Position numbers and translations under genes: made by a program
Notes under the pieces: model-generated
Databases searched by the model: none
What the model was told of the DNA's origin: nothing
The model's input: the letters and a program-made list of their open reading frames with translations, nothing else
In this document: positions 5,526 to 51,436 of the stretch, piece after piece
How the letters are laid out: each line of letters starts with the position of its first letter
Numbering within the stretch: the stretch's first letter is position 1
Assembly (NCBI GenBank): GCA_961205875.1
Contig: OY540817.1
Location: forward strand, 3,755,001 to 3,819,000
Direction: 5' to 3'
Length of the DNA: 64,000 nt
DNA from: Sialis fuliginosa
Lineage: Eukaryota; Arthropoda; Insecta; Megaloptera; Sialidae

Positions 5526-5730
5526 ATTGAGTGTGTTAAATTTTGTAAATGTAAATTTAATTTTATGTATCGCATTGTTAAATTAAACAATATATATATA
5601 TTGATTAATTCAGGTCCAATCCCACTAGTTAATAATAATTAAATAACATGATATTAAAATTATATGATATGAAAAAATCGATGATTACGATAGACAGAAA
5701 ACGTGCTCTGAATGTAATAACTTCACGTAC

Positions 5731-5880
5731 TTTCCTGTTAATTGGAGAGCCTCTAATTAACTCAGGCTCGGAGTCAGTGTCGTTCAGCAGCCAGGAGCGT
5801 ACCCGCGAGTACAGTGAGGGGGACTCGGGGGAGGCGTCCAAACATTTTAGATTGTAGTCATTATCCATTACTTCTTCCAT
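5731..5880 (-). CDS. Candidate first coding exon of an unrecognised gene
   Basis: From an ATG at 5,880 a 50-codon frame runs to a donor-like AAA|GTACGT at 5,731-5,730. Its base composition and codon use look coding: it is clearly GC-richer than its surroundings and rich in acidic, Ser, Pro and Leu residues, with the stretch YSRVRSWLLNDTDSEPELIR. An in-frame stop lies about 30 bp upstream of the ATG with no acceptor AG between, so the ATG would be the true start. No downstream exon was identified to the left and I do not recognise the protein. A chance open frame remains possible. Confidence 0.35.
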
Positions 5881-6117
5881 TTTTATTTTGTGTAACAGTT
5901 TTTAAAATTTCACATTCAATTATTTTAAGATGATATTGGAAAATTTTTTTTGGTCACATTAAGTTGTTACTTTTTTATTTTAGAGTATTTATTATTGAAA
6001 CTTATGTTAATTAGTTTAGTTTTAACTAATGAAAAAAAGTTAATTAATTGAAATGATTTTTCATTTTTAATTAATTAATTAAATTACTATAGTCCATTCG
6101 TTAATGAATTTCGCATA
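5881..6117. other. Possible promoter/leader of the 5.8-kb exon
   Basis: AT-rich sequence with no repeat ends recognised. If the exon at 5,731-5,880 is real, its 5' untranslated region and promoter would lie here on the minus strand. No specific promoter motif was identified. Confidence 0.25.
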
Positions 6118-23396: not shown

Positions 23397-23723
23397 GTTG
23401 TAGCAATTCTGTGACAACTATCCCGAACCAATATAATTTATAAAACGAATATGAGAAAAATAGTCGAACACAATTTTCCGCCACATAACCTGAGCACTTT
23501 TGACAAATGGTTGACAAACAGTATAGGGATTTTTGTATCTTGGATATCGACAGTTGCCACTACTGATTCAAAATGACAAGTAAAAATGAAACTGCGAAAA
23601 CTGACATATGATTCTGACGTATGAGTCATAAATTTCACCACCGTCCGTAAAATTACAATAGTTTCGTTTATAAAAGCAAATCATTCATGCAAAATTACAT
23701 TAGTGTAAAAATTTCCAGCGACC
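23397..23723. promoter_or_regulatory. Shared promoter interval between divergent start codons
   Basis: 327 bp separate the minus-strand ATG (23,396) and the plus-strand ATG (23,724). The interval is GC-richer than the neighbouring intergenic DNA and free of recognised repeats, as expected for a bidirectional promoter. No TATA box or named factor site can be asserted. The 67-codon minus frame 23,438-23,641 is not supported. Confidence 0.45.
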
Positions 23724-24807
23724 ATGGAGTTCCCACATTTAGGAAAGCAGTGTTGTGAATCTTCTTGTAATAAATTGGGTATGTACCTATGTGTTTGTTA
23801 AATAATAAATGTGTTTAAACAATTATATTCTTGTATTATAGATTTCTTACCTGTGAAATGCGACGCCTGTGAACAAATATTTTGGTATGTAATTGGAAAA
23901 ATTTTATGTCTGTTAATATTTTAACTAAATAAAACTGTTTTTTCTTTTCAGTAATGAACATTATTTCTATTCAAATCACAACTGTCCATCATCTTATAAA
24001 AAGGATGTCCAAGTGCCTGCATGCCCTTTGTGCAATGCTTTAGTGCCTGTACCTCGAAACCAATTACCAGATATAGCGGTAGGTGCACATATTGACAACG
24101 ATTGTCAGTCAGATCCTGCAAAAAGTCGTCGGAAAGCATACACCAACAGATGTACAAAGAAAGGCTGTAAAGTGAAAGAGATTGTGCCAATATTGTGTAG
24201 AGAATGTTCGTTAAACTTCTGCTTGAAGCATCGGCATCCCACTGATCATGCTTGTGAGGGAAAAACTGCCGCTTCCAGGCGAAAAGTGGCGTAAGTAATT
24301 AAACTGATTTGATTTGTAACAGAAATATAATATCATTGCTTATTACTTACCTTCATACTATTTTCTACATTAACAGTAGCTAAAAAAATTGTATACGTAC
24401 AGAAAGAAAGTAAAAACATGTTGTTAGTGAGAGTTAAGTCACATTGAATGTAATTGTTTTACAGCGAAGCAGCAATTTCGAGGCAAATGAATAAAACGAA
24501 TAAAGCAATCAGAAATTCACCAGTAAGTTCAAGATCTATTGCTCAAAATCCATTTACATCAGTACAAGGCTCAATGGTAATTATTTTGTACAATTAAACG
24601 TCGTTGAGTACTAATTTTCTAATTTAATAGAGTGAAGATGAAGCATTGGCGAAAGCTCTAGCATTGTCGATGCAAGATCAAGAAGGAATGAGTCAAGAGG
24701 ATGCAGATTTAGCTATAGCACGTTCTCTCCAACAAGCTGAAAACCGACAAGTAGCCGGTACAGCTGGCGGAAGTCGTAACACAAAAGACAGGTGCTCCCT
24801 CTCGTAG
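23724..24807 (+). CDS. ZFAND2: AN1-type zinc finger protein 2 (AIRAP/AIRAPL family)
   Basis: Five exons: 23,724-23,778; 23,842-23,884; 23,952-24,290; 24,465-24,576; 24,631-24,807. All have GT-AG junctions and consistent phase, giving 241 residues. It starts MEFPHLGKQC, as the family does. Two AN1 zinc fingers follow: residues about 10-57 (with DFLPVKCDACEQIFC) and about 100-135 (ending FCLKHRHPTDHAC). Two ubiquitin-interacting motifs lie at about 185-199 (EALAKALALSMQ) and 206-220 (ADLAIARSLQQAE). The C-terminus is CSLS, fitting a CaaX prenylation box, as known for the membrane-anchored AIRAPL (ZFAND2B) branch. Family members associate with the proteasome and p97/VCP and help clear misfolded or stalled ER-translocating proteins, especially under arsenite stress (established for mammals and worm). 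Its tail converges on malate synthase. Confidence 0.95.
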
Positions 24808-25351: not shown

Positions 25352-25570
25352 TATTAATATTAAATAGTATAACCCTGAGTTTCACTAAAGTCTGTTATTT
25401 CTAACAGCCTTGTAAATTTCTCAAATAGACCAATCAGAACCCAGCATTCAGAAGTATGCTTCTAAATGCTGGATTCTGATTAGTTCATTTTGTTAGATGT
25501 TCTTATTTGAAAAGAATCTGACGGTTACAGTGATTGTTACAAAGTTAAACATAACCTCAAATAATATACT
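25352..25570 (+). repeat. Dispersed MITE-like repeat between convergent genes
   Basis: It begins ATATTAAATAGTATAACCCT and contains GACCAATCAGAACCCAGCAT and AACATAACCTCAAATAAT. The whole unit reappears inverted at 26,726-26,911, with a core-only copy at 26,080-26,165. No clear terminal inverted repeat. Confidence 0.75.
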
Positions 25571-25641: not shown

Positions 25642-25647
25642 TTTATT
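25642..25647 (-). terminator. Candidate poly(A) signal of malate synthase
   Basis: AATAAA on the minus strand, 27 bp past the stop codon (25,674). It is a canonical hexamer at a plausible distance, although such hexamers are frequent in AT-rich DNA. Confidence 0.4.
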
Positions 25648-25673: not shown

Positions 25674-28600
25674 TTATAAATTACTTTTAAACATTTGAAA
25701 ATCTGTTTGTTGACTTTGTTTAAACATATAATGCTCGTACAGATAAGTGGTTATAAAATCAGGGAAGTCTTTCATTGTAATTAGATCAAAGAATATTTTG
25801 ACTGCTATCAACAATGTTGCTCTGTTTAACTTGGTTCCCATTTCATTTTCTATATTGCGTAAAATATGGTATGTCATTTGTTCTACTAATGATATCGTTA
25901 CGTTGTTTTCGTTATCTTCTATTTTAGCCTATTATAAAAGCATTGCTCTATTATTCCAGTTGTTTAGTTTTATTTATGATTATTATTGGTAATACTTTTA
26001 TAACATTTGTTTTTTTACAAAATTAGGTAAGTAGAACCTCTCTAAAAGTATATTTCCCCTACTACTCATTCCATAATCTAACAACCTTGTAAATTTTCAA
26101 ATAGATTAATCAGAACCCAGTATTCAGAAGTAAACTTCTAAATGCTGGATTCTGATTAAACAAATTATATACGTTTAATGAGATTCTACTGTATAAACTG
26201 TATTTATTATTTTCGCTTTACAGATGTATTGTAGCTTTATTAAGAGTAAGTTATTTGCTATATTTGACACAATGTTGCTACGTTTAAATGAATTTTTAAA
26301 TATTTGTTGTAAATGAATATATTTCATGTTTGATAAAGTTATAGATATTTTTGTGTATACTTTAAAGTAAATAAAAGGTGTTTACATTTGAATAAAATAA
26401 TAGTTTATTTACCTGATGTCTTATCCATTGCCAGATTTGTGAACGAGATATTTCAGCTGTAGCAGAATCTTCAACACTGTTATTAAAGAAATAATGACCA
26501 TTTCCATATAACCAATGATAAATAAACATAATCGATACAATTATATTGTTCTTTAAACCGTTCATTGTTACACCTCCTTTAGGAATTTCTAGTAAATGCG
26601 ATTCAATAATTACAATATCACAAACTTTTCTATTTATTTGATTTGGATTGCTTCCACATTGTTCCTTCCACAACTGAAATATTATTATATTGTAAATGGT
26701 TATGATACAAAATTATATACTTCAATTATTTGAGGTTATGTTTAACTTTGCAACAATCATTGTAACTGTCAGATTTTTTTAAACGGACCAATTAGAATCC
26801 AGGATTTGAAACATACTTCTGAATGCAGGGCTCTGATTGGTCTATTTGAAAATAGACAAGGCTATTAGAAATAACAGATTTTGTGAAACTCAGGTTTATA
26901 CTATTTAATATAAACGATTATAAATAAAGTGACCAGAATTCTAAAACCCTGATGCGGGACACCTCCCTCCCACATACGAAAACGAAAAAATATTTTTAAC
27001 AGAAATAATTTTTTATAAAAATTTCAATACAGTTTTTTTATTTTAGATGAATAAAAGTATATTTTATAGTTTGAATAATCCAAAGACCTTTTTTTTTTTT
27101 AGTTATCAAATTGAAATTCAATTCTTAATTATTTTATAAATAAACAATATGTATACTAAAATATAAAAAAAGGTCTTCAAATTGAGATTTTTTTATTGAT
27201 GTAAATAAAATTATAGTATAATGTTAAAAATGTCTAATCCGGGACGTTTTCCGGAACAATTTGTGATGCGGGACAGGCCACTCAAATCCGGGACTGACCC
27301 GCACAATCCGGGACGTCTGGTCACTTTAATTATAAACCAAATATATAGTTTATAGTTTTATTTGATGTAAAATGAGTTCAATAACACAAGAGAGTAAACA
27401 TACTTTTAGAGAGATTTGTATACATTTGGAGAGGTTAATTATGTTTTACCTTATTTATATATGGTACAAGTGTTATATCATACACCATAAAGCCATCAAC
27501 GCCTTCGATAATTTCTTTTTTTTTGGCATCCACGATTTTCATAATATCTGAACTGAAAACAAATATCAACAAAAAGTGAGGTTAAGTTAGGAAACCTTTG
27601 AGAAATACATACTGATTTCGAACAATTCCAGCTGCCATTCCACCTGTGGCATGGGCGCTTCTTGAGTGACATGTTCGGATAACTAACTGCATGTATTTCT
27701 TTAAAAACGTCTTATCCATATTAACATACTTACTTCTATCCGGAATAAGAAATTTCTTGTCGTTACCTGAACATATTAAGTAAAATAAAAAATTTATTAG
27801 ATAAATGCGTTTTTTTTAAATTTATTTACTGCCTAGCTATTTTGAGTGATATGATGATTATATATATCTAATATACTATGTTTGAGTTTTTGGTGGAAGT
27901 TTCATCAAAATCGGTTCAGTAGTTTTAATGTAAAATTAATTACCAAATTTACAAATTATCGAAGCAGCGTAATCCCAAATACCACAATTTAACCCCAGCG
28001 AGTGTTTGCGTAATTCATATAAAATTTCATCCATTTCGAAAGATGCAAATATGTTCTCAATTAAAACACACGCCTTTATCGTTTCTTGCGGGATATTCAA
28101 ACGGTTTTGCGTCCAAACGAATATGTTATTCCATAATTTGGCTTCTTCCGCAGATTCGACTTTTGAAAGATAAAAAAACGGGCCACTTTTATTTTCGGCT
28201 AATATTTTTCCATTGTGGAAAACCAATATTGTAAAATCAAACAATGGACCTGGTATCATTTGTCCTCTTATCTAAAAATAAAAAAAGATATTATTATTTG
28301 AGACTTTTCGTAGCATATTCCGTTACCATAAAATTATTTTCAATCATATTCCATGCTCTAGGCCGTAACATTAGAATTGGGGCTGATGTTATAACAGGAA
28401 CACCAGGTAACTCGTTATGTACTGCTTTGTAAACGTTATACAAACCATCGATTTGATTCTTCCAACTCGGACAATGCCCATCATCGAAGTCAACCTTAAA
28501 ATAGTATTTAACAAATAAATTCAGAGATTAAATTAAATTAATATGACTAACCTACCTGTATACCCTGGACGTTTGCATTTAGAGCATCTGTAAAATGCTT

Positions 28601-28993
28601 TAAATTTGTTGGAGATACGTCACCTAAATCTAAACGTCGATTAATAAGTCTTTCCGGAACAGGAGATATTTTCCAGCTCTTATCTGAACGTTCGGCTGAC
28701 TTTTTAAATGATAATGAAAAATCTGGGTTTTGTAATAGACATTTTCTAAGTAATCTAGCTTGATAAATCTATAATATTGCACAGATTTTTAGTTTTACTC
28801 GCATTTTAACAAATACCAATAAATAAAGTTAACTTCTTCTGACCTTATCAATATTTTCATGGAACTCATCATATGCTTCAATAATGAAGTTAAATAGTTC
28901 TTTTGTAAATAATACATGTATTGCTGGTGCAGATGATTTTGGAAGTGGTTTATACGTTATATTTTTATTTAAAACACTGGTATTAAAAATCAT
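25674..28993 (-). CDS. Malate synthase, complete eight-exon gene
   Basis: Exons (5'-3', minus): 28,993-28,844; 28,768-28,556; 28,494-28,327; 28,271-27,944; 27,766-27,613; 27,552-27,450; 26,673-26,413; 25,928-25,674. All phases agree, giving 543 residues, the usual size of A-type malate synthase (about 530-560). The enzyme condenses acetyl-CoA with glyoxylate to malate in the glyoxylate cycle. Motifs in order: VDFDDGHCPSWKN (122-134), RPRAW (165-169), GPFFYLSKVES (207-217), HSLGLNCGIWDY (267-278), HSRSAHATGGMAA, EDSATAEISR (440-449). Counterparts of the catalytic Arg (R167), Mg ligands (E249 and D277, spaced 28 as in the family) and catalytic Asp (D441) are present. The C-terminal SNL could act as a PTS1 peroxisomal signal. 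The first donor is GTCAGA, the weakest junction. Introns rule out simple bacterial contamination. No isocitrate lyase is in the window. Confidence 0.95.
26726..26911 (-). repeat. Inverted copy of the 25.4-kb repeat, malate synthase intron
   Basis: Reverse complement of 25,352-25,570, with TGAAACTCAGGTTTATACTA at its right edge. It lies in the intron between exons 6 and 7, so the two copies flank exons 7 and 8 in opposite orientation. Confidence 0.75.
26925..27328. mobile_element. hAT-like element in malate synthase intron 6
   Basis: Perfect 8-bp duplication ATTATAAA (26,917-26,924 and 27,329-27,336). Ends TAAAGTGACCAGA and TCTGGTCACTTTA are inverse. Inside are GGGACA/CGGGAC repeats. It shares its GTGACCAG terminus with the element at 54,685-54,952. 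It ends 122 bp from exon 6 and leaves the splice sites intact. Confidence 0.9.
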
Positions 28994-29051: not shown

Positions 29052-29109
29052 ATGGAGTTGTCTACTACTAGTCCAAGTAAATTAGATATTTTAGAAGAAC
29101 AAATTCATA
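29052..29109 (+). other. Possible exon fragment cut by a transposon
   Basis: ATGGAGTTGTCTACTACTAG opens a frame reading MELSTTSPSKLDILEEQIH, preceded by an acceptor-like AG. It is interrupted at a TA by the 2.8-kb element (29,110-31,958). Across the rejoined site only nine further codons follow before a stop. I do not recognise it. It could be a remnant exon of a plus-strand neighbour or chance. Confidence 0.25.
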
Positions 29110-31958
29110 AAGTTTTGATACTTTGTCCACGAACTCTTATGCCCGGTATTATAAAGGACCTAACAAAATTTGTTAGCTAGCAATTACATTCATATGGGGT
29201 ATTAATACTGTACTAGTATCTATGGATTAGTTATGGAATTTAGAGCAGTGACACTTCAATTAATTGTAACACAGTTGGCATCTTTGACCGTACAAAATAA
29301 TTTTCATAACATCACCACTGTTTTAATACCGTTTGTATTTACCTTCAACGCGTGCGCGAAACTTGTCAAAGTCATCAACAAACTCCAAAAGAACTGTCAT
29401 ATATGTTTGATACCTCAGTTGAAAGTGTTTGTTAGCTAACAAATTTGTTAGGTCCTTTATGATACCGGACATTAGTAGGGTTTGAAATAAGAGCCCGAAA
29501 AGTTCCCACCTAAATCGTGGATGGAACATCCCCTTTCACGTAAAAAACTACCCCCGGAATGAAATTTATTCCAGTTTTTCCCATTTTTCATCCGAACCGC
29601 TGTTCGGAGAAAAAAATATTACAGGAATTAAAGATTCTACATAAAATTCTACGTAAAAAATGTCAGGTTCACTATTTGGTTAATTCCCAGCCTACTCTCG
29701 CAATCGTTGCTCAAAGTGAAGGGTAGTTTTGGGAACGCAGCGAAAAATCGGCGTAACAATAGTTTTCAACATACATATTTCGAAAACGGCTGATTTTACG
29801 TAAAAAATGATTATGATAAAAATTATAGAACTTAATCTTCTCTATGAGATCCATGCACCACGAACTTTTTTCAAACGTTTTTCATTGATTTTTTTGCTCT
29901 TTTTCACAAACGTACATTCCATATTTTGAGCTCTTTTCCATACAACCCATTGAGTACAGCTTTTAACAAACTTTAATTTAGTGGTTTACCCTCGTAAGTC
30001 TATTCCACTAAGTTTTGTATATTTTTATTGATTTTATTTATAAATTTGACATTTACGCGTGAGTTGTAGATAACCATATTTCCACAAAAAAACAGCTGTC
30101 ACCTATGACTATGGCTGCCACAATTTATTCTAAGTACCACGTGACCAAGTAAATATTTATTCCTTGCAAAAAGATGGGAATAAATTTAATGGTATAATAT
30201 AGTGATATTTATAGTGAATTTGTTATTTTTATTCCGTTTTTAGTAATTTTTTGTTCCAAATGTTGATCTAGTCGACATCAGAAAGAGAAGAACTTATCTG
30301 TAGCAAGTGAAACAACAATACTATTTTTACTACCTAGTACTGTCGCTATTTATTCATCGAGTAAACTTATCTGCCTTTTATAATACCGGCCCTAAGTTTT
30401 GTATATTTTTATTGATTTTATGTTGGCTTCTTGGATTAATTCCTCTTCGGTTGACGAATTTAGACAACCTTCTCTATGGTAGTTGAAATACATAGTTAAG
30501 CAGCGCAAACCAATTTTAATATAGCCGCATCGTTTCCAGCAACCCACTTGACAGTTCTGGTTTAAAATTTTGAAGATGTAAGGTAGACATTGTGCCTCTG
30601 TAGTGAAAATAAATGATAAAATGTTGTTCGTTTTCATTTTAACCCCATTTTGTAGCACCTATGATAACTGTCTGTCAAGATTTAGTTTGGTAAAATACCC
30701 AATAGGAATGTGGTTGATAAACTGCATATATCGATGAGATAAAATTATAGCATGTTTCTAATGGACAACCAACTTATGAAACGAACTAATTTTTTGTGGA
30801 TTTAAATATATTTCCTTTCGTGAACCTTTCTACAATATTTTTCTTCCGAACCGTCATTCGAAGAAAAAAATATAGCAAGAATTAAAGATTCTATATAAAA
30901 TTCTGCGTACAAAATGTCATATGTTCTATTCGGCTAATCCTCAGCCTACTCTCGCAATTGAAACTCTAAGTGAAGGGTAGTTTTGAAAACGAAGCGAAAA
31001 ATCTGCATAGCATGATTTTTCACCGTAAATATTTTCGTAACGGTGAACTTAACGTAAAAAATTATTATTATGAAAATTATAGAACTGAATCTCTTCTATG
31101 AGATTCATGTGCTACGATTTTTATTTCAAACGTTTTTCATTGATTTTTTGGCTTTTTTTTACAAATGCACATTGTACACTCCATTTTTTTTACAAAATAT
31201 AATACAATTTAAACAAACGATGCGTCCTTTTGAGATATTTTGAAAAAATACTGATTTTGAGGTACTACCTCCTTACCTTCCACACGATTTTGATGATTTT
31301 TATATGGGATCATCTACTAGTCAGAACCAACAAAGAAAGTTTCATTAAAATCGGTCCAGTGGTTTATGAGTTAAGCGTGCGACAAAAATTCAGGGGACAG
31401 GCACACATACACATACGCACACACATAGACAACATATTTTACCATATTTTGATGATAATTTTTACTACAAAATCTTCTCCATGTAAATTAATAGAATGCG
31501 CGTTTGTGAAAAATGGGCAAAAAAATCAATGAAAAATATTCGTGGTGCATGGATCTCATAGAGAAGATTAAGTTCTATAATTTTTATCATAATCATTTTT
31601 TACGTAAAATCAGCCGTTTTCGAAATATGTATGTTGAAAACTATTGTTACGCCGATTTTTCGCTGCGTTCCCAAAACTACCCTTCACTTTGAGCAACGAT
31701 TGCGAGAGTAGGCTGGGAATTAACCGAATAGTGCACATGACATTTTTTACGTAGAATTTTATGTAGAATCTTTAATTCCTGTAATATTTTTTTCTCCGAA
31801 CAGCGGTTCGGATGAAAAATGGGAAAAACTGGAATAAATTTCATTCCGGGGGTAGTTTTTTACGTGAAAGGGGATGTTCCATCCACGATTTAGGTGGGAA
31901 CTTTTCGGGCTCTTATTCCGAACCTTACTGAGAGTTCGTGGACAAAGTATCAAAACTT
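29110..31958. mobile_element. Fold-back element, 2.85 kb, TA-flanked
   Basis: Long arms: AAGTTTTGATACTTTGTCCA at 29,110 returns inverted at 31,939-31,958, and TCGTGGATGGAACATCCCCT, CCCAGCCTACTCTCGCAATC and GAGATCCATGCACCACGAAC pair with complements at 31,890, 31,700 and 31,545. Arms total about 450 bp apart from the nested insertion at 29,140-29,471. A diverged extra copy of the arm sits inside at 30,830-31,170, followed by a family-A relative (31,195-31,420). No transposase frame. It lies directly upstream of malate synthase. Confidence 0.85.
29140..29471. mobile_element. PIF/Harbinger-like (Tourist-type) MITE
   Basis: TTA | TGCCCGGTATTATAAAGGAC ... GTCCTTTATGATACCGGACA | TTA. Three-base TWA duplications are characteristic of PIF/Harbinger. 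It is nested in the left arm of the larger fold-back element, whose right arm lacks it. Family copies: 36,962-37,249, 49,409-51,433 and, diverged, 54,627 onward. Confidence 0.8.
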
Positions 31959-32360
31959 TATAATTTTTTTCTTCTATTTGGCGAATTTTAATCTAAATAT
32001 CGTGGACTATTATACAAAATAAATATTTGTCTATGACTTGACCTTTGTATTAACAATAAGATAAGAATTTGTATGAAAGTAATAAATGGACTGTAATGTT
32101 TTATACAAGTTTTAAGGCTTCCGTGGTGATCTGGATATGGATCTTGGTTTCTGGGTGTAAGCTGCGTCGATTTGGTCGTGCAATGTTTTATTTGGTTAAT
32201 GTTTTGAGATAATGCAAAGGTAAAATAACATGAGTTTTTGCAATGTATTAATAGAATTGTTAAGTTTTATCAACTAAATCCGTTGCTAAAAATTAAAATA
32301 CGATTTGTAATATGTACCCAAGGTTATTATATGTATAATACATATAATAACCTTGATATG
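31959..32360. repeat. AT-rich spacer with a truncated palindromic-family copy
   Basis: At 32,106-32,175, AAGGCTTCCGTGGTGATCTG and GTTTCTGGGTGTAAGCTGCG are a one-armed, diverged copy of the 10,173/60,591 family. A short perfect palindrome around ATATGTATAATACATAT lies at 32,328-32,345. Confidence 0.6.
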
Positions 32361-36726: not shown

Positions 36727-36961
36727 TATTTGATTTTATAAATAATATTAAATAATGTAATATGAAAATTAACCTGATATAGAGAATTTAAAATAATCTA
36801 CATATATTTATGCTACCACAAATAAACTCTGGAATGTGGTTTAGATAAACTCTTGTATAAGGAAAAAATTTTTGGACCCTAAAATAGGGGACGAGGAACA
36901 TTGTCTCTGATAGCTGTAGGTGGATTTTTCTTATAAAAAATTCTTAAAACTAAAAATCTTA

Positions 36962-37249
36962 TGTCCGGTATTACAGCCTAGCTAATAAAATTTACTAGCT
37001 AGCTAGCACTTTCAAACGGGGTATCAAATTTAAATGGCAGTTCTCTTTGACTTTTTGATAGATAGTTGCGTGCACAGTAAGTTGGTTTTTACCATTTTTA
37101 CTCAAGGTTAGTAAAAATACTTTACATAACTTTGCCTTTACTTGCTTACTGTCAAAAACTCCAAAACAACTATCATATAAGTTTGATATCCCGTTTGAAA
37201 GTATTGGTAAGCTTGCAAAAATTTGTTAGGTAGACTGTAATACTGGACA
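36962..37249. mobile_element. PIF/Harbinger-like MITE, 288 bp
   Basis: TTA | TGTCCGGTATTACAGCCTAG ... CTGTAATACTGGACA | TTA. Internal sequences match the nested copies at 29,140 and 49,409 (GGGTATCAAA and ACTGTCATATAAGTTTGATA blocks). Confidence 0.8.
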
Positions 37250-37252
37250 TTA

Positions 37253-38266
37253 GTTTGTTTTTTATATATATTTTTAAAATAGTCTTTTCGCATTAAAAAT
37301 AGGAATTTATGATAATATATTTTAAAATATCAATAATAATTGCACATTTTATTAATGTTAAATGTTATTTTGTGCACTATACTAAATTGAACTTTGCTAA
37401 GGGACATTGGTTCCTTACCCCTTGCTTTACTAAACACTGTAAGTCACTATATTCCATTAAAGATTGTCCCATTATTTACATTAATTTGTACAGTAGCTAC
37501 AATGTACCTACACACTTTATTGTCCTAATATCTTCAGATGGTGGATATTTTGAAAATAAAAACACTTTAATAATTATTTATTAACAAACCACACTGTTCA
37601 AACTTCAAGAAAATAATAAGGTCAATAAATAAACCACTATTTCAACTATGTTTTGCAGAAATGTATCAACCCACATACAAACAAAAATACATTTGTGATT
37701 TTATTACATTATTGGAAAAAAGTAATTTGTTGTCTATTTGGTTAATTAGATATATATTCCAATAAAATCATTCTCTCTTCAACCAAACCATTAAATTATA
37801 ATTTAAATAAAGGAGGTGGGTAGATAAGGCCGAAAATTTATTAATAACATAAATTTTATATGTTCATAAAGGACACATTCTCAATAATACAATATTTTTA
37901 TATTTTTTTATATTTTAACGTTGGGACAAAAAAACTGGCCTTATTTACCCAATATTTTTTGTATAGTTATGAACATAACCTCAAAAATAAATAGGTTGAT
38001 ACATTAGTGCGTAACATAGTTTAATTATATATTCGATGACAATGATTGAGCAATAACGTATTTTTTCCAGAATATCCACAAATCTATAATAAAATTAAAT
38101 TAATATTAGAGCTGCCCTTCGCAGTTCATTTATAGAAATATTCTATAAGTTGGCACAGAATCGTTGAATACATTATAAAAATATACAACACTCACAATGT
38201 GATTTCAGTCAAGTTGTTTAATGTTGGCACTATGTATTTGTATAATCACTAACTAACTATTATTTA
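37253..38266. other. AT-rich region downstream of aop (3' UTR and intergenic)
   Basis: The aop stop is at 38,267-38,269 and the 3' untranslated region runs left from here. No poly(A) site can be assigned with confidence. The 91-codon frame at 37,309 lacks support. Confidence 0.4.
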
Positions 38267-41200
38267 CTACTGATCACTGTTCATCGTACTGTATTTGTTT
38301 ATTTCTGGAGCACACAAAATACTGATTCTATGTTTATCTGATTTACTGCTCAGATCTGTAGGATGGTGGACCATACTTAGATCTGTTGGCATTTCTTCAT
38401 CTTCATCTGAATGACGTCTTTGCATAACTTCATGCTCTTCTGTTTTAATCGTCTGTTGTTCCATTTGTTTAGCGACCAACATGTTTTGACTTTGACCGGA
38501 TGCAAGAGGTGAATTAGTTTGTTGTTGTTGGAAAATCGATATATTTTTGGTATTTTTCAAATCGGCTGGACTTCTTTGATAAAAGAAATGGTGTGTTTTT
38601 GTCTGGTAATTTTTCATTGAGTCTTCATCTTCCATTTGGTGACGTTGTTGTTGCATTGATTCGTGTTCTTCGGTTTTGATGTTCTGTTGTTCCATTTTCA
38701 TGTTTTGGTTTTGAGCTGAGGATAAAGGTGTTATAGGCGCGTTTGTCTGAGTCGGTGACATTTGTTGCCGTAATAGGGAAATGTTCTTGATGTTTTTCAA
38801 TTCGGTCGGGTTTCTCAAAAATCTGTAAAGAAAATTTAATATATTAAAAAAAACTGAAGCGAAACATTTTTGTTTTTTAATTGATTAAATTATATCCAAG
38901 ATTTCCATATAGTGAATATGTTATTTTAACAATAGAGGTCAAAGATATTAATTAATACACATCTGGACTATTTTTTTCCATATAGTTTATTTTATTTTAA
39001 TAATAGGGCCCCTAAAATATCACTTAAGACACATCTGAACTGTTTTTTTTTAATTGATTAAATTATATATAAGGTTTTCATATAGTTTATGTGAATATAT
39101 TATTTTAATAGTAAAGGCCCAAAATATCACTTAATACGCATCTGGACTATTTTTTAAACTGATTAAATAATTTAAATAATAAGATTTGCGCCAGCGGCCT
39201 TCACCCCCGCCCCCCATCGTTTCATGTTAAAACGCGTCGAGGTTATTCATTTATTAGCCTCACTAAAGAAGTTTTACTTCAAAAATTTATGAATATTTCA
39301 CTTACTGGTAACAATGTCGCTCTCCTTGTACTTTTCTCAAAATATTTACACGATAATAATATCGTAAGGCACGTGACATTTTGTCATAGTTCATTGAAAG
39401 GTGATTCTTCTGAATTCCCCATAACTTGGCTAAACCAGCCGGGTCGACTATTTTAAATACACCGGTATCACGGTTCTTCCACGCAATATAACTGGTGTAA
39501 CGTTGAGTAGGGTCGTTTAACAATTGTTGTAAGAAGTCCCAAAGAAGACGACCATCTGTAATTTAAAACAAACATTTAATAATCATGCTCTGAGGTTATC
39601 CATTGCGTATATATATATATAATACAGTAAAACCTGCCTAAAACGAAACGCAGTATTTTTTTTCTGTTTTAACAGGTCTTACAACGGATTATTTTATAGT
39701 TATTAGAAGGCATTGTTACCGAATTGCATACATAAATACAGTAAAAAGTAAATTTAAAAATCACGCGGATATGGGCACACATAACGAAACTGTCAAGGGT
39801 ACGTTACGATGCTTGGTCAGCTTTTGGGAGGTGAAACAAGAGTAAAAATTACAATAACTTCCAGTTGGGAAGTTAATAAAAATACATGTATCCGAGCATT
39901 CAATCTCATGGGCATTATTAACCCTTGTGTTAATGGATAGGAATTCGTGTACCTTTTTTAATTTCATTTGATGAGTTTTGTATTTAATTTTTTTTTGATT
40001 TTATGGGCATCCAGGAAAGCCAAGATCCATTTATTGCTAAAAAGTTAAAAAGTATTTGGAACTAAAAGATTTTTGAGCCTAGATTTAAATGGTTAATGGA
40101 TAAGTACTCGGGTATCTTAATTATCTCATTTATAAACTTATTAAGATGAAATTTGGTATACGGACGTAGATTGATGATTCAAAACAGAAATTATGAGATT
40201 TTTGAAAAAAAACATTTTTTTGGACCCTCTTCCATACATTACTTACGTGGGGTGTCTTTAGATAGGTCTCCTAAAATGCAACAAAAAATATTCTAGGAAC
40301 TTTTGATTTTAACCCTTCAGTCACAAGAACAGAAAAGAAATATAACTGAGAAATTTATCTATTTTGTAAAAGAATATAATATTATTTAGTTGTGTAAAAA
40401 TAGTTCCATAGTTTGGTATGTACTCTCTCTGTCCCATAATACTTGATAGTTTTCTCCTTTTTTATTGTCCCATATTACTGTATGTTTCTTTAAAATTAAT
40501 TTTTTAACAAAAAAATTAGTATATTTTTATTTAAGAGTAGTTTATTTTTCAAAAATGATAGTTCTACTACAAAAGTACATCAATAAAAATAGTATGATCA
40601 ATTAAACTCATAAGAAAAAAATATTGAGATAGAGCCATATATTTTGATAAGCCGCGGCCACGAAACAAAAAGAATCAAGTATTATGGGACAGAGGGAGTA
40701 CTATTTATTATGCATTAAATAAACCGTCTTACAATTAGTTAGGTTATTTATACAAATGGTTCCCGATAATTATTCTGTTTCCACATTAGGAAGTTTTCCG
40801 GTTTAGAGTATTATTTTGTTTGTTCAGGTTTCCGGTATGTAGAGGGTCAGGTTTCATTGTAGATATACTTACTTGTATTAGGTTCAGGTGTATCGCTGGG
40901 AAAGAATTCTCTGGCAACAGGTCTGAACGGGGACGGACTAGGCACTAGCATCTCTTTCTTAGGACTGCGCAGAGGCTGCTGGGGTATGGCACTTGGTGTC
41001 AGAGGTGGACTGCCACTCGAGTGGCCTCCGGAGGGACTCGACTCTGCATAACTGTCTTCGTCAGAGTCAGACTGTGTGCCGTTACCGTACCCGTGCCATT
41101 CCTGTTTCGGTACGAGTGTTGGAGCGTTAGCGTTATCAGCGTGATGAGGACTGCCAGATTGACTGTCGACAGAGGGTGCGGGGCTTAGCGTCACAGAGTT

Positions 41201-44200
41201 ACTCTGGCTCATGAAATGCGCTAGACTGGCCGCGTGCGCTGCGTTCTGAAATTAAAACACACATGGTAATATGTGCAACCTTTTTCTTTCCATTTATTAA
41301 CCGACTTATAAAATATAATATATACAATCAATTAATATTAGATTTAAAACAATTACATTATAATGCACGTACTGAACTTAAAATATAAATAAGGGAACCT
41401 TATCTTTACATTTATATTGTTGACAATAAAACCTATATACTTATTTTTTGTTTTCTTTACTCCCACTGTTATGCAAACGTCAAAAATGAGAGATAAATCT
41501 TTGTAAGGGAATATTTTACAACAATGTAGATCCATTTTATAGGAAATTTAATGCTCTACAAAAAATATTCTATAAAAATTTTACGTAACATGTGTCGTTC
41601 TTGAGATACTTTGAAAAAATTAATATTTTGGGATGTCACCCCTCCCCCTTACATACGATTTTGATGATTTGGGGGGGACCGTCCTCAAGCCAGACCCAAC
41701 CATCCGACCAAGTTTTAATAATATCGGTTCAGTGGTTCATGAGTTATGCGTGTGACAAAGATTCAGGGGACAGACGGACGGACGGACACGGAACGAAAAG
41801 TGTTTGTCTTGACGTGAAACGGAAAGATCAATTTAAAATTTTGAAATCGAAGAACATTTGTTTTGTCTCAATCTGAAACGATCACAAAGCTTCTCGTATC
41901 TTCGATATTGCGAGGAAACAAAATGTGTTGTAATTAAATTTACCTGGAAATGGTCGTGCTGTAGTACACTCCAGGCAGCGGCCGCTACTGTAGCTGCAGA
42001 TACGGGCACCTGTGACTGTCCGCCCCCGTTAGCTACTTGCTGTTGCGTCTGGTGATGATGGTTGTGGTGATGCGTAGGGGGCGGCGATAGCTGGTACGGT
42101 GAGGGCGTCAGAGGACTCGACGGTAACGAGGAAGCTGCGTCACGGAGCAACAGTCGCAGCACGTTGTGAAGGAGGTCGCCGGCCGGGGGACATCGCGCGG
42201 CTAGGTCTGCGCGAGTCAATAGACACATCGCTTTACCGTTCATACGGAACGCGTCCATGTCGAGCGGCTGGAGGTCGAACTCGCGCTCGCACCAACGTAA
42301 GAATGTCACCACATCGTCGCGGGACCACGTACGGGGATCTGTAGCTGTAAACAGTGAAAGTATTATGTTTAACAAAAAATGGAGAGGAGACAACTCAATT
42401 AAAGGAATCTTATAATAGTAGTCCACTCAAATTATAATATTCGCCTCGATTGGCAAATTATGCCCTTAATAAAATACCAAAAATGCAAGACTGTAGGCCC
42501 TGAGAAACACACTAAAAAAAAAAAAAAAATGGTACTCTGGTTTATAGCTAAACCTAAAACAGTCGAGTCTCGTTTATCTGAAATGCCGAGTTTCGTTTCT
42601 TCGAATTTTTCTCCTCTTTCACCTCCCAGCATTCTCGAGTCATGGCGTAAACGAACATATTTTTGAAATTTTTGTAGATTTAATTAGAGACACTTATCAC
42701 CGTCGTCACTCGCCACCTTGCTCATATTCGAAATTAAAAGTAAAATAAAATTATTTCACTATCACGATTAACTATTAACGATAAATATTAAATACCAAGG
42801 TATATAAAGACATTAACGTACATAGTCTCTATAGCTCCTTGACCAATCAGCGCGAGAATTGAAGTCACCACGAAGACGTATTCAAATGTTATAAATGTAT
42901 AATAGAATATCAATTACAAAAAAATCCATCATTTATTCTTATTTTCGTATTTTTTTTATATTTTAACAACGGTTATTTCAAAACGATTCAAAACGAGTCC
43001 CGACTGTAGTTTAGTTATAGTTAAACTATTTTTGAGTGTTATTTATTTATTAATTATTATATTATCATAGCATCTGATTTTACGATTCTTTATTTTATAA
43101 CTTTTGTATCGTAGTAACCATTACTGGAGAAAAAAAAAAATAAAAGGCTATAATAAAAAAAATAATTGCGAACTTTGGTATTAAATTTATTTAATAAAGA
43201 GGTAGTTGTTTTATTAGTAACATGAGTTCATAAGAATTACAAAAAAGAAGCCTGTCAATCCCAAGAAACCTTGCTCTTAAAACGGCCAAGACTGATGCCA
43301 GTACCTTAATTAATATTTTACTCAAAACTAAAATTAGGTCGTTTAAGTTTCTAAAATTGGTTAGAAAATAACTGAACGAATTTGTGAATGTACGCAGACG
43401 AAGCCGCAGAGAAATGTTTTTGATAAAAGTACTTGTTTTAACATACTATGTTAATGTATGATAATTCGTTTACGTGTATTCGATAGTCAAAGTGTTAATA
43501 TATGATAAATAAAACGTGCCCCGTTACACAATCATCTCTAATTATAGTTATTTATTTCTAACAATAAGTAAATTACAAAGAAATGAGTATTTTGTAAAAA
43601 AATATACAACAAATGATTTATTATTTAAAAATCACGTTTATTTTGATCACGTGTAAATTACAAATCTTTTCAATTGATACATTGTTTTGATAATAAATAA
43701 TTCCTCACAAATAAAAGTTTAAATAAAATGTAGAGAAAAATAATGTACGCTACTGATTGTGCGATTATTGAAAATTATTAAATAATAAATGGTGATATGA
43801 AAGATACATAATTAATAATTAAATAAATCGAATTGAAATTACAATGAATTAACAATAACGAAAAATAAATTGAAAGGTAAAGGCACCAGATATGGCCGCT
43901 GTAAGAGCAAGTTTTTGGCTTTTTTTTATTAAAGGCATGTTTTTTGTAATTCTCATGTAACTAATAAAACAAGTAACTCTTTATTTAATCAATTTAAATA
44001 CCAAATTCCGCAAATATAGTTTGTTTTTCAAATTATAACCTTATATTTTGTTCATATTTTGTCTCCAGTAATGGCAAAGGTAAAACCAGTAATGAGCACG
44101 CAGTGATGGACACTTGCTAATGATTACAAAATGATAAGTACTACGACACAAAATATAGAAGAAAGAATCGTCAAAGTTAAAACAAATTCATAAATAAATT

Positions 44201-48365: not shown

Positions 48366-49408
48366 TCACTTGTTTGCCCCGTATCTGTCTACAGTCCAAA
48401 GCTTTCCAAACTGTAGTCATCAGAAAGCATGTTTAATTTAGGAAGAATTCGTGCCGGTTAATATGAATCTATTTATTTACCAGGTATCAAAATTCTTCCG
48501 TAGATATTTTTAACAAAATATTTTTTTTTAATCAACGCTGGCACTGCGGACAGCGGTGCGCAGGTAATAATAATTGATGCAGTTATGTAATGTGCTGCTA
48601 GGAGTGTTATTTATTGGCAAGTGAATAATTATGATAAATATGCGGAAATGTAACGCGTTTAATAGTTCAGTGGCCATTCATAATGCTCAGTGGCTACAGG
48701 GATCCATGAGTCGGTTGTTATGTATTGTATACAGTTAGGCGTAGGTTTTATATGGGCGGGTGTTCCACACAGCGTTTTTATTTTTTTTTTCAAATTTTGA
48801 CTACGAGAAAAACGTATTATTTTTAATAAGGTCGAAAAATCGTACCCGAAATAAGACCAGATTCTGATTGTACTACCTTCAAAACTTAAAGAAAAGTTGA
48901 TTTCCGCATGGCAGCTGTGCGTGTGACTGTGTGTAGAATTTTCTTATGTTCACGATAACTACTGTAAAAATGCACAGATCTAAATTATTTTTGGGGAAAA
49001 TGTTTGTCTCAGTGAGTACTTGGTGCTAATCGGATAAGGAGTTTTGGAAATATTCGTTTAGTAACTTTTATCGTTTAAAATTTTTGATAAGACTTGGTAC
49101 ATTTATAGTACAATTGAACCTAAGGGACATTTATTATTTGTACGTTCCTAAACAGCTATTGAAGAGGTGAAAACCACCCTCAAAATTTGAATTTTAAATA
49201 CTAATCACTGATTCATGTTACCTATGCAACTAAATTCAAATCGTCAAATTAGGACATTAGAAAACTAATATTTATAATACAAATGTAGTTTTATTTCTGA
49301 CAAATCTCATTGAAATTTTTCATATATTAAAAAAATTTAAAAAGATATTAAAGAACATGGAAGTCATGTATGGTTCCCCATACCGGTATTTATAAAAAGA
49401 TTCTTTAA
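48366..49408. other. Repeat-rich intron/upstream DNA
   Basis: Positions 48,895-49,030 (CGCATGGCAGCTGTGCGTGT; TTCACGATAACTACTGTAAA) match, inverted, 61,425-61,580. This is another dispersed repeat, ends undefined. No gene. Confidence 0.5.
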
Positions 49409-50032
49409 TGTCCGGTATTATAAAGGAGCTAGCAAATTTGCTAGCTAGCAAGTAGGGTTGTTAGGGATATGACATATCGGTTACGGATACGGATAAGGAT
49501 ATATTTTTTTCTTGGTTTCGGTTTCGAATACGGATATGGATTTTTTTCTTTCTTGGTTTCGGTTTCGGATACGGATATGGATATTTTTTTTCCTTAGTTT
49601 CGGTTTCGGATACGGATAGGGATATTTTGCCCCCTTGAGTTTCGGATATGGATACGGATACGGATTTTTTTTTTGTATTTTTCAGCCCGTAGTATAGTTT
49701 TTGTTGAAATTCGATACAGTCGAAAATTTCGAAATCGGTTATAACGATATCGTTTAATACAACATATCGGTTTTAACGATCAAAATAAAAGTTCGGAGTG
49801 AATCCCATATATGGTAATTGCCTAGTTCCCGGTTTTTACGACTTAATATGACTGGTCCCCCTATCTGATTTAGACTCTCTGTATATTCCTTTTACTTATA
49901 ATCTATAAAAATTTACATTTCTAGCTATATGTCTAATTTCCAGATTTAAATAATATAAGTAATTTTTTGTGACAACAATAAAACGAATTCTAATAAAATT
50001 GAAATATGATGATAAACTTGATATAATAAAAC

Positions 50033-51140: not shown

Positions 51141-51436
51141 TATCCGATAGTTTCGGTTTCGGATACGGAGCTCCGTAACATCCCTACTAGCAAGCACTCT
51201 TAAATAAAGTATCAAACTTATATGACAGTTCTCTTTGAGTTTTTAACAGATATTTGCAAGCGCAGCAAGTTAGTTTTTACCGTTTTTACTCAAGATTAGT
51301 AAATATACTTTACATATCTTTAATTTTACTTCCTATGCATGAAATTATCTGTCAACAACTCCAATAGAACTGTCATATAAGTTTGATACCCCATTTGAAA
51401 GTGCTTGCTAGCTAGCAAATACAATACCGGACATAA

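Follow-up and report, generated by a model that had tools for sequence, protein, structure and literature searches.

The presence of a malate synthase gene in the genome of the megalopteran insect Sialis fuliginosa raises the question of what the enzyme does in an animal and whether its product is malate at all. The gene is located in a window of 64,000 bases, corresponding to bases 3,755,001-3,819,000 of contig 9 (23,282,099 bases) in a genome of 392,097,322 bases and 20 contigs, and positions below are counted from the first base of this window. The original prediction regarded such a gene as surprising in an insect, a view that has to be given up, as malate synthase genes from Anopheles gambiae, Aedes aegypti and Bombyx mori, together with a Spodoptera EST, were published in 2006, and the same survey extends the carriers to sea urchin, fishes, frog and opossum (Kondrashov et al., PMC1630690). 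According to the sections of that survey consulted here, nonsynonymous rates in animal malate synthase are well under synonymous ones, Drosophila shows no trace of the gene, and Tribolium, the genome of which was searched, is absent from the list of carriers (PMC1630690). Of the sequenced animals, the same sections credit nematodes and cnidarians alone with isocitrate lyase, alongside malate synthase, and the isocitrate lyase annotated in Anopheles, with a partial one in Aedes, was judged to be bacterial contamination; the function of the remaining malate synthases was left open between a new role and an unrelated isocitrate lyase (PMC1630690). Named transcripts are also on record, one from Helicoverpa pupal brain (PMC3277317, excerpt) and one from Aedes, tabled in Zika-exposed mosquitoes among several trypsins and above the down-regulated heading, with a value of 6.87 that belongs, to judge from the layout of the excerpted table, apparently to the 36-degree columns (PMC7303344). 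Among the matches listed from the open-licence literature, no enzymology of an insect malate synthase was recognised, and the literature matches listed gave no answer as to why animals retain the enzyme without isocitrate lyase. Insect malate synthase is known ground; what is new here is a set of altered residues on the substrate side of the active site.

The splice model on the minus strand comprises eight exons spanning 28993-25674, with 1632 bases encoding 543 residues and a stop codon, and it recovered the same coordinates as the intact gene of eight in-phase exons that had been predicted earlier. Exon 1 (28844-28993) starts with the ATG at 28993, encodes residues 1-50 and is followed by the donor GTCAGA; exon 2 (28556-28768) encodes residues 51-121, including the RRLDLGDVSP loop, S102 and H108; exon 3 (28327-28494) encodes residues 122-177 with the VDFDDGHCP stretch and the catalytic R165; and exon 4 (27944-28271) covers residues 178 to about 287 with the Mg ligands E249 and D277. 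Exon 5 (27613-27766; residues about 287-338) carries M330, exon 6 (27450-27552; residues about 338-372) carries M360 and I364, exon 7 (26413-26673; residues 373-459) holds the catalytic base D441 within VEDSATAEISR, and exon 8 (25674-25928; residues 460-543) runs to the C-terminus ...MFKSNL and the stop codon, which ends at 25674. All seven introns (75, 61, 55, 177, 60, 776 and 484 bases) are bounded by GT..AG. An in-frame stop is situated 42 bases upstream of the ATG, and a polyadenylation-type signal AATAAA (25642-25647, minus strand) begins at the 27th base past the stop codon. None of 2000 base shuffles of the coding sequence kept an open frame, with a mean of 44.3 stops per shuffle, and the G+C content is 32% in the coding sequence and 25% in the introns. 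An intact, intron-bearing animal gene with GT..AG introns and malate synthase motifs is what the locus has in common with the coelomate malate synthases described in 2006, and isocitrate lyase is not known in coelomates according to the consulted sections of that survey (PMC1630690).

One repeat family is present in three copies (25354-25565, 26077-26158 and 26725-26914), distributed over the 3' flank and the last two introns (6 and 7) of the gene. The copies at 25354-25565 and 26725-26914 are mutually inverted and 81% identical over 212 aligned columns, and the one at 26077-26158 matches 25400-25482 at 92% over 83. A second repeat (29092-29600) starts about 100 bases upstream of the malate synthase ATG and may extend past 29600, where the query ended; it recurs in inverted orientation at 31803-31976 with 93-98% identity, and pieces of it are found near 36954-37254, 49406-49454 and 51187-51420. 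A plus-strand frame of 42 codons (29052-29180), whose ATG lies 58 bases from that of malate synthase, enters this second repeat and is possibly a remnant of a divergent gene or a product of chance.

The gene is resident in the insect genome, as had been claimed on account of its introns and its position amid ordinary insect genes. Besides the seven introns and the 23.3-Mb contig, it is flanked on the left by a ZFAND2-like gene on the plus strand (about 23709-24804) encoding C2H2 and AN1 fingers and a UIM motif, and on the right by minus-strand frames encoding an Ets domain (39305-39562) and a Pointed domain (41836-42426). The two frames probably belong to one gene, which we take to be of the Ets98B/SPDEF type; Ets genes are animal genes. 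When the whole genome was searched with the Pfam model PF01274, this locus alone scored, via two exons of the malate synthase gene, in a search that scores exons singly and that a heavily fragmented copy could escape. Elsewhere in the window, a minus-strand frame at 5632-5901 containing MEEVMDNDYNLKCLDASPESP has the look of a coding exon and matched no Pfam family at 0.01.

Family membership is clear at the level of domains. The 543-residue product matched PF01274 with an E-value of 1.2e-65 (221.4 bits against a cut-off of 26.4) and PF20659 with 1.2e-22 (81 bits against 23.1), and among solved sequences it matched 3cux, "Malate synthase", at 2.6e-108 and 3cuz, "Malate synthase A", at 1.3e-86. 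The NCBIfam model TIGR01344 for malate synthase A, an equivalog model built for prokaryote annotation, gave an E-value of 2e-123 and 412.4 bits, which is 182 bits short of its curated cut-off of 594.5; the shortfall counts against assignment to malate synthase A and is a first sign that the protein lies far from the bacterial norm. The catalytic set is complete, with R165, E249, D277 and D441 aligned to R166, E250, D278 and D447 of Escherichia coli and the Mg ligands E249 and D277 spaced 28 residues apart, so that the catalytic Arg, Mg ligands and catalytic Asp named in the original prediction all find their E. coli counterparts. The same catalytic Arg, Glu, Asp and Asp are present in malate synthase G and the archaeal isoform H. 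The retained set argues for a malate synthase-type condensing enzyme that would use Mg2+ and acetyl-CoA. The C-terminal ...FKSNL presumably resembles a weak peroxisomal signal and is a candidate for one.

For comparison, 14 bacterial malate synthase A sequences were hand-picked for a spread of taxa and for the inclusion of distant full genes from 79 matching plasmid records, the other 65 being left unaligned, and all 79 matches are below 60% identity to the window protein. Two alignments were made, with nine bacteria and then with 14, the larger set including three sequences with 29 to 43% identity to E. coli. The alignment of nine has 118 invariant columns, of which the window protein retains 76 and changes 42; in a leave-one-out comparison, each bacterial sequence retains 90 to 98% of the columns on which the remaining eight agree. 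The alignment of 14 leaves 57 invariant columns, 41 of which are retained. One of the losses is a gap in the window protein, so the tally by exon covers the 56 columns at window residues: 0/3 in exon 1, 3/5 in exon 2, 5/5 in exon 3, 9/13 in exon 4, 8/9 in exon 5, 2/6 in exon 6 and 14/15 in exon 7, with none in exon 8. Exon 4 is the best-conserved exon, its identity to bacteria reaching 59-60%.

Compared with E. coli AceB, the protein is similar in length and has both domains, the counterparts of R166, E250, D278 and D447, and M330. The two are 34.6% identical, and E. coli W365, P369, M102, T95, G96 and R276 are replaced in the insect protein, which also carries a two-residue insertion in the loop corresponding to RRVEITGP and a five- to six-residue deletion past GGMAA. 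Past the aligned Tyr523, its tail has 20 residues compared with four in E. coli, so that the protein ends 16 residues later; two of the 14 bacterial copies have long tails too, with 12 and 19 residues. No relative was confirmed in viral contigs, which were scanned both with the complete protein and with joined motif pieces totalling 57 residues. The DNA pattern for DGFMV[YH]D matched seven loci, the best with a tblastn E-value of 0.24 to the protein and none being malate synthase, and the pattern for N..GIWDYA gave no match.

The reading preferred here, with a probability of roughly 0.6, is that this resident nuclear gene, which probably exists in one copy, encodes an A-type animal malate synthase that salvages glyoxylate as malate outside the glyoxylate shunt. 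By the known mechanism of the family, Mg2+ would hold the oxo acid, D441 would take a proton from the methyl group of acetyl-CoA and R165 would steady the resulting enolate, which would attack the oxo carbon, followed by hydrolysis of the thioester. With less confidence, the oxo acid would be glyoxylate and the product malate. It is likewise with less confidence that the enzyme is proposed to act alone, in the salvage or detoxification of glyoxylate from purine, glycine or hydroxyproline breakdown, rather than as one half of a shunt. Breakdown of purines, glycine and hydroxyproline is an established source of glyoxylate; that the insect enzyme works alone, and that purines would be its source, is suggested by other animals and by bacteria.

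The bacterial side of this analogy comes from Deinococcus plasmids. In Deinococcus sp. QL22, malate synthase A is encoded next to allantoate amidohydrolase, allantoinase and allE, and genes for xanthine dehydrogenase lie nearby; in D. psychrotolerans it lies near genes for allantoinase, allantoate amidohydrolase, glyoxylate carboligase and glycerate kinase. The plasmid records with malate synthase A in such ureide-breakdown clusters are L018 (8401-14613) and L019 (1-11865), and the 20-21 kb around the two Deinococcus loci show no annotated isocitrate lyase, in gene tables that are incomplete and that cover stretches of plasmid only. Isocitrate lyase adjoins malate synthase in other plasmid copies. 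The clusters suggest that glyoxylate may be used without isocitrate lyase in bacteria. The insect and Deinococcus genes are alike in standing among genes other than isocitrate lyase, an analogy of use only. The Deinococcus enzymes are bacterial; the one in records L014 and L018 is short, at 461 residues, and has diverged strongly, with 29% identity to E. coli. Unlike the window protein, they keep the tryptophan and proline discussed next.

An argument against salvage as malate comes from the substrate pocket. The tryptophan beside glyoxylate (E. coli 365) is replaced by M360 and the proline backing the adenine (E. coli 369) by I364. All 14 of the 14 aligned bacterial enzymes have this tryptophan and this proline, even one whose identity to E. 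coli is no more than 29%. The stretch WVAHP reads MVYDI in the window protein (DGFMVYDI against DGTW[VI]AHP), with no adjacent gap and within a single exon. The earlier reading dealt with the catalytic residues alone, and these are retained, whereas several of the substrate-side residues around them have changed. In a profile alignment, Trp534 and Pro538 of isoform G fall on the W and P of the isoform A stretch WVAHP. According to the structural account consulted in part, the aldehyde carbon of glyoxylate lies next to a tryptophan (Trp534 of isoform G, Trp257 of H) and the adenine of CoA is backed by a proline (Pro369 of A, Pro538 of G, Pro261 of H); the account also lists Ile94, Thr95, Gly96, Met102 and Met330 around CoA in isoform A (PMC3112382). 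Isoforms G and H thus keep both residues and the window protein neither; the presence of this Trp and Pro in isoforms A, G and H was adopted as a mark of malate synthase by the analyst's own choice and not from a published rule. At other aligned places, V101 matches isoform G and S102 matches isoform H, in a protein much shorter than G.

The remaining changes in the CoA site are less telling. E. coli Thr95, Gly96 and Met102 correspond to V101, S102 and H108, and these say little because the loop has a two-residue insertion and because some bacterial enzymes differ there too (3/14, 2/14 and 3/14, respectively). H108 could pack on the adenine, as a tyrosine does in isoform G, and M330 is retained. 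Taken against the salvage reading, the replacement of W by M360 and of P by I364, and with less weight that of M by H108 and of T by V101, means that malate may not be the product.

The alternative in which the acceptor has changed, acetyl-CoA or another acyl-CoA being condensed with pyruvate or another larger 2-oxo acid to yield citramalate or a like acid, is considered unlikely. A methionine at the position of the tryptophan, which crowds the oxo carbon, may make space for a bulkier oxo acid. In the archaeal isoform H, as described in the excerpted account, pyruvate inhibits without reacting, its methyl group being pushed up against the tryptophan and a proline, where it apparently cannot settle (PMC3112382). 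The concentration of losses in exon 6 (two of six invariant columns retained, compared with 14 of 15 in exon 7) points the same way, as does the universal W and P of the bacterial set and their match to W534 and P538 of isoform G. A lyase with related chemistry, Rv2498c, is described in the part of its report consulted as holding the methyl group of citramalyl-CoA against Gly, Met and Val side chains (PMC6689899), a description that offers no more than a lead for the window protein. Against a changed acceptor, losses extend beyond the pocket to exons 1, 2 and 4, three of the 14 bacterial enzymes also differ at T95 and three at M102, the loss of the tryptophan may be common to all animal malate synthases, and the other partner in isoform H, Pro231, corresponds to Met here as it does in isoforms A and G. 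It is just as conceivable that the window protein is an ordinary malate synthase able to accommodate the pocket change.

Next to be weighed against glyoxylate salvage is one half of a working glyoxylate shunt, with a known or an unrelated isocitrate lyase supplying glyoxylate for the conversion of fat to sugar. The malate synthase is intact, and nematodes and cnidarians possess both enzymes, but these are the only sequenced animals to which the consulted sections of the 2006 survey assign isocitrate lyase, the mosquito copies having been dismissed as contamination (PMC1630690), and this reading is considered very improbable. Slightly more improbable still is the reading of a gene in the course of being lost, recently silenced or under relaxed constraint, in which the substrate-side changes would be early signs of decay. 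The 42 changes among 118 columns invariant in nine bacterial enzymes and the three copies of one repeat in introns 6, 7 and the 3' flank would fit such decay; against it stand 543 codons with no stop or frame break, where shuffles carry a mean of 44.3 stops, splice sites that are all intact, the retention of all four catalytic residues, and the unevenness of the changes, as exon 3 keeps five of five invariant columns and exon 7 14 of 15.

Contamination by bacteria or a recent bacterial gene transfer is given a negligible chance, for although the malate synthase family occurs in 79 bacterial plasmid records and PF01274 scored in six of 14 control genomes, all six of them prokaryotes, the gene has seven introns, eukaryotic neighbours and a 23.3-Mb contig around it, by which contamination was ruled out together with the identity to bacteria of less than 60%, and its best exon matches fall below 60% identity in 76 of 76 plasmid records. 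A bacterial source of the DFDDGHCP motif was likewise rejected, as a DNA-pattern scan of 84,980 prokaryote species with one spelling of the motif returned a single match (record L010), which is unrelated to malate synthase and lies in a frame with stops nearby.

Salvage of glyoxylate as malate is retained as the best explanation, and the altered residues M360 and I364 offer a way, accessible to direct test, into a long-standing question. If malate proves to be the plain product, glyoxylate salvage would be favoured, while a preference for a larger oxo acid would establish a new metabolic step in animals. A broader proposal, held as rather doubtful and a little less probable than the changed acceptor itself, is that animal malate synthases, or at least this one, kept their condensing chemistry after the loss of isocitrate lyase while the pocket was re-cut and lost the tryptophan that helps to exclude pyruvate, and that they now make another acid, such as citramalate, from acetyl-CoA and a larger 2-oxo acid. 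If true, such a re-cut pocket would account for the retention of malate synthase in animals that lack isocitrate lyase, a question left open in 2006 (PMC1630690).
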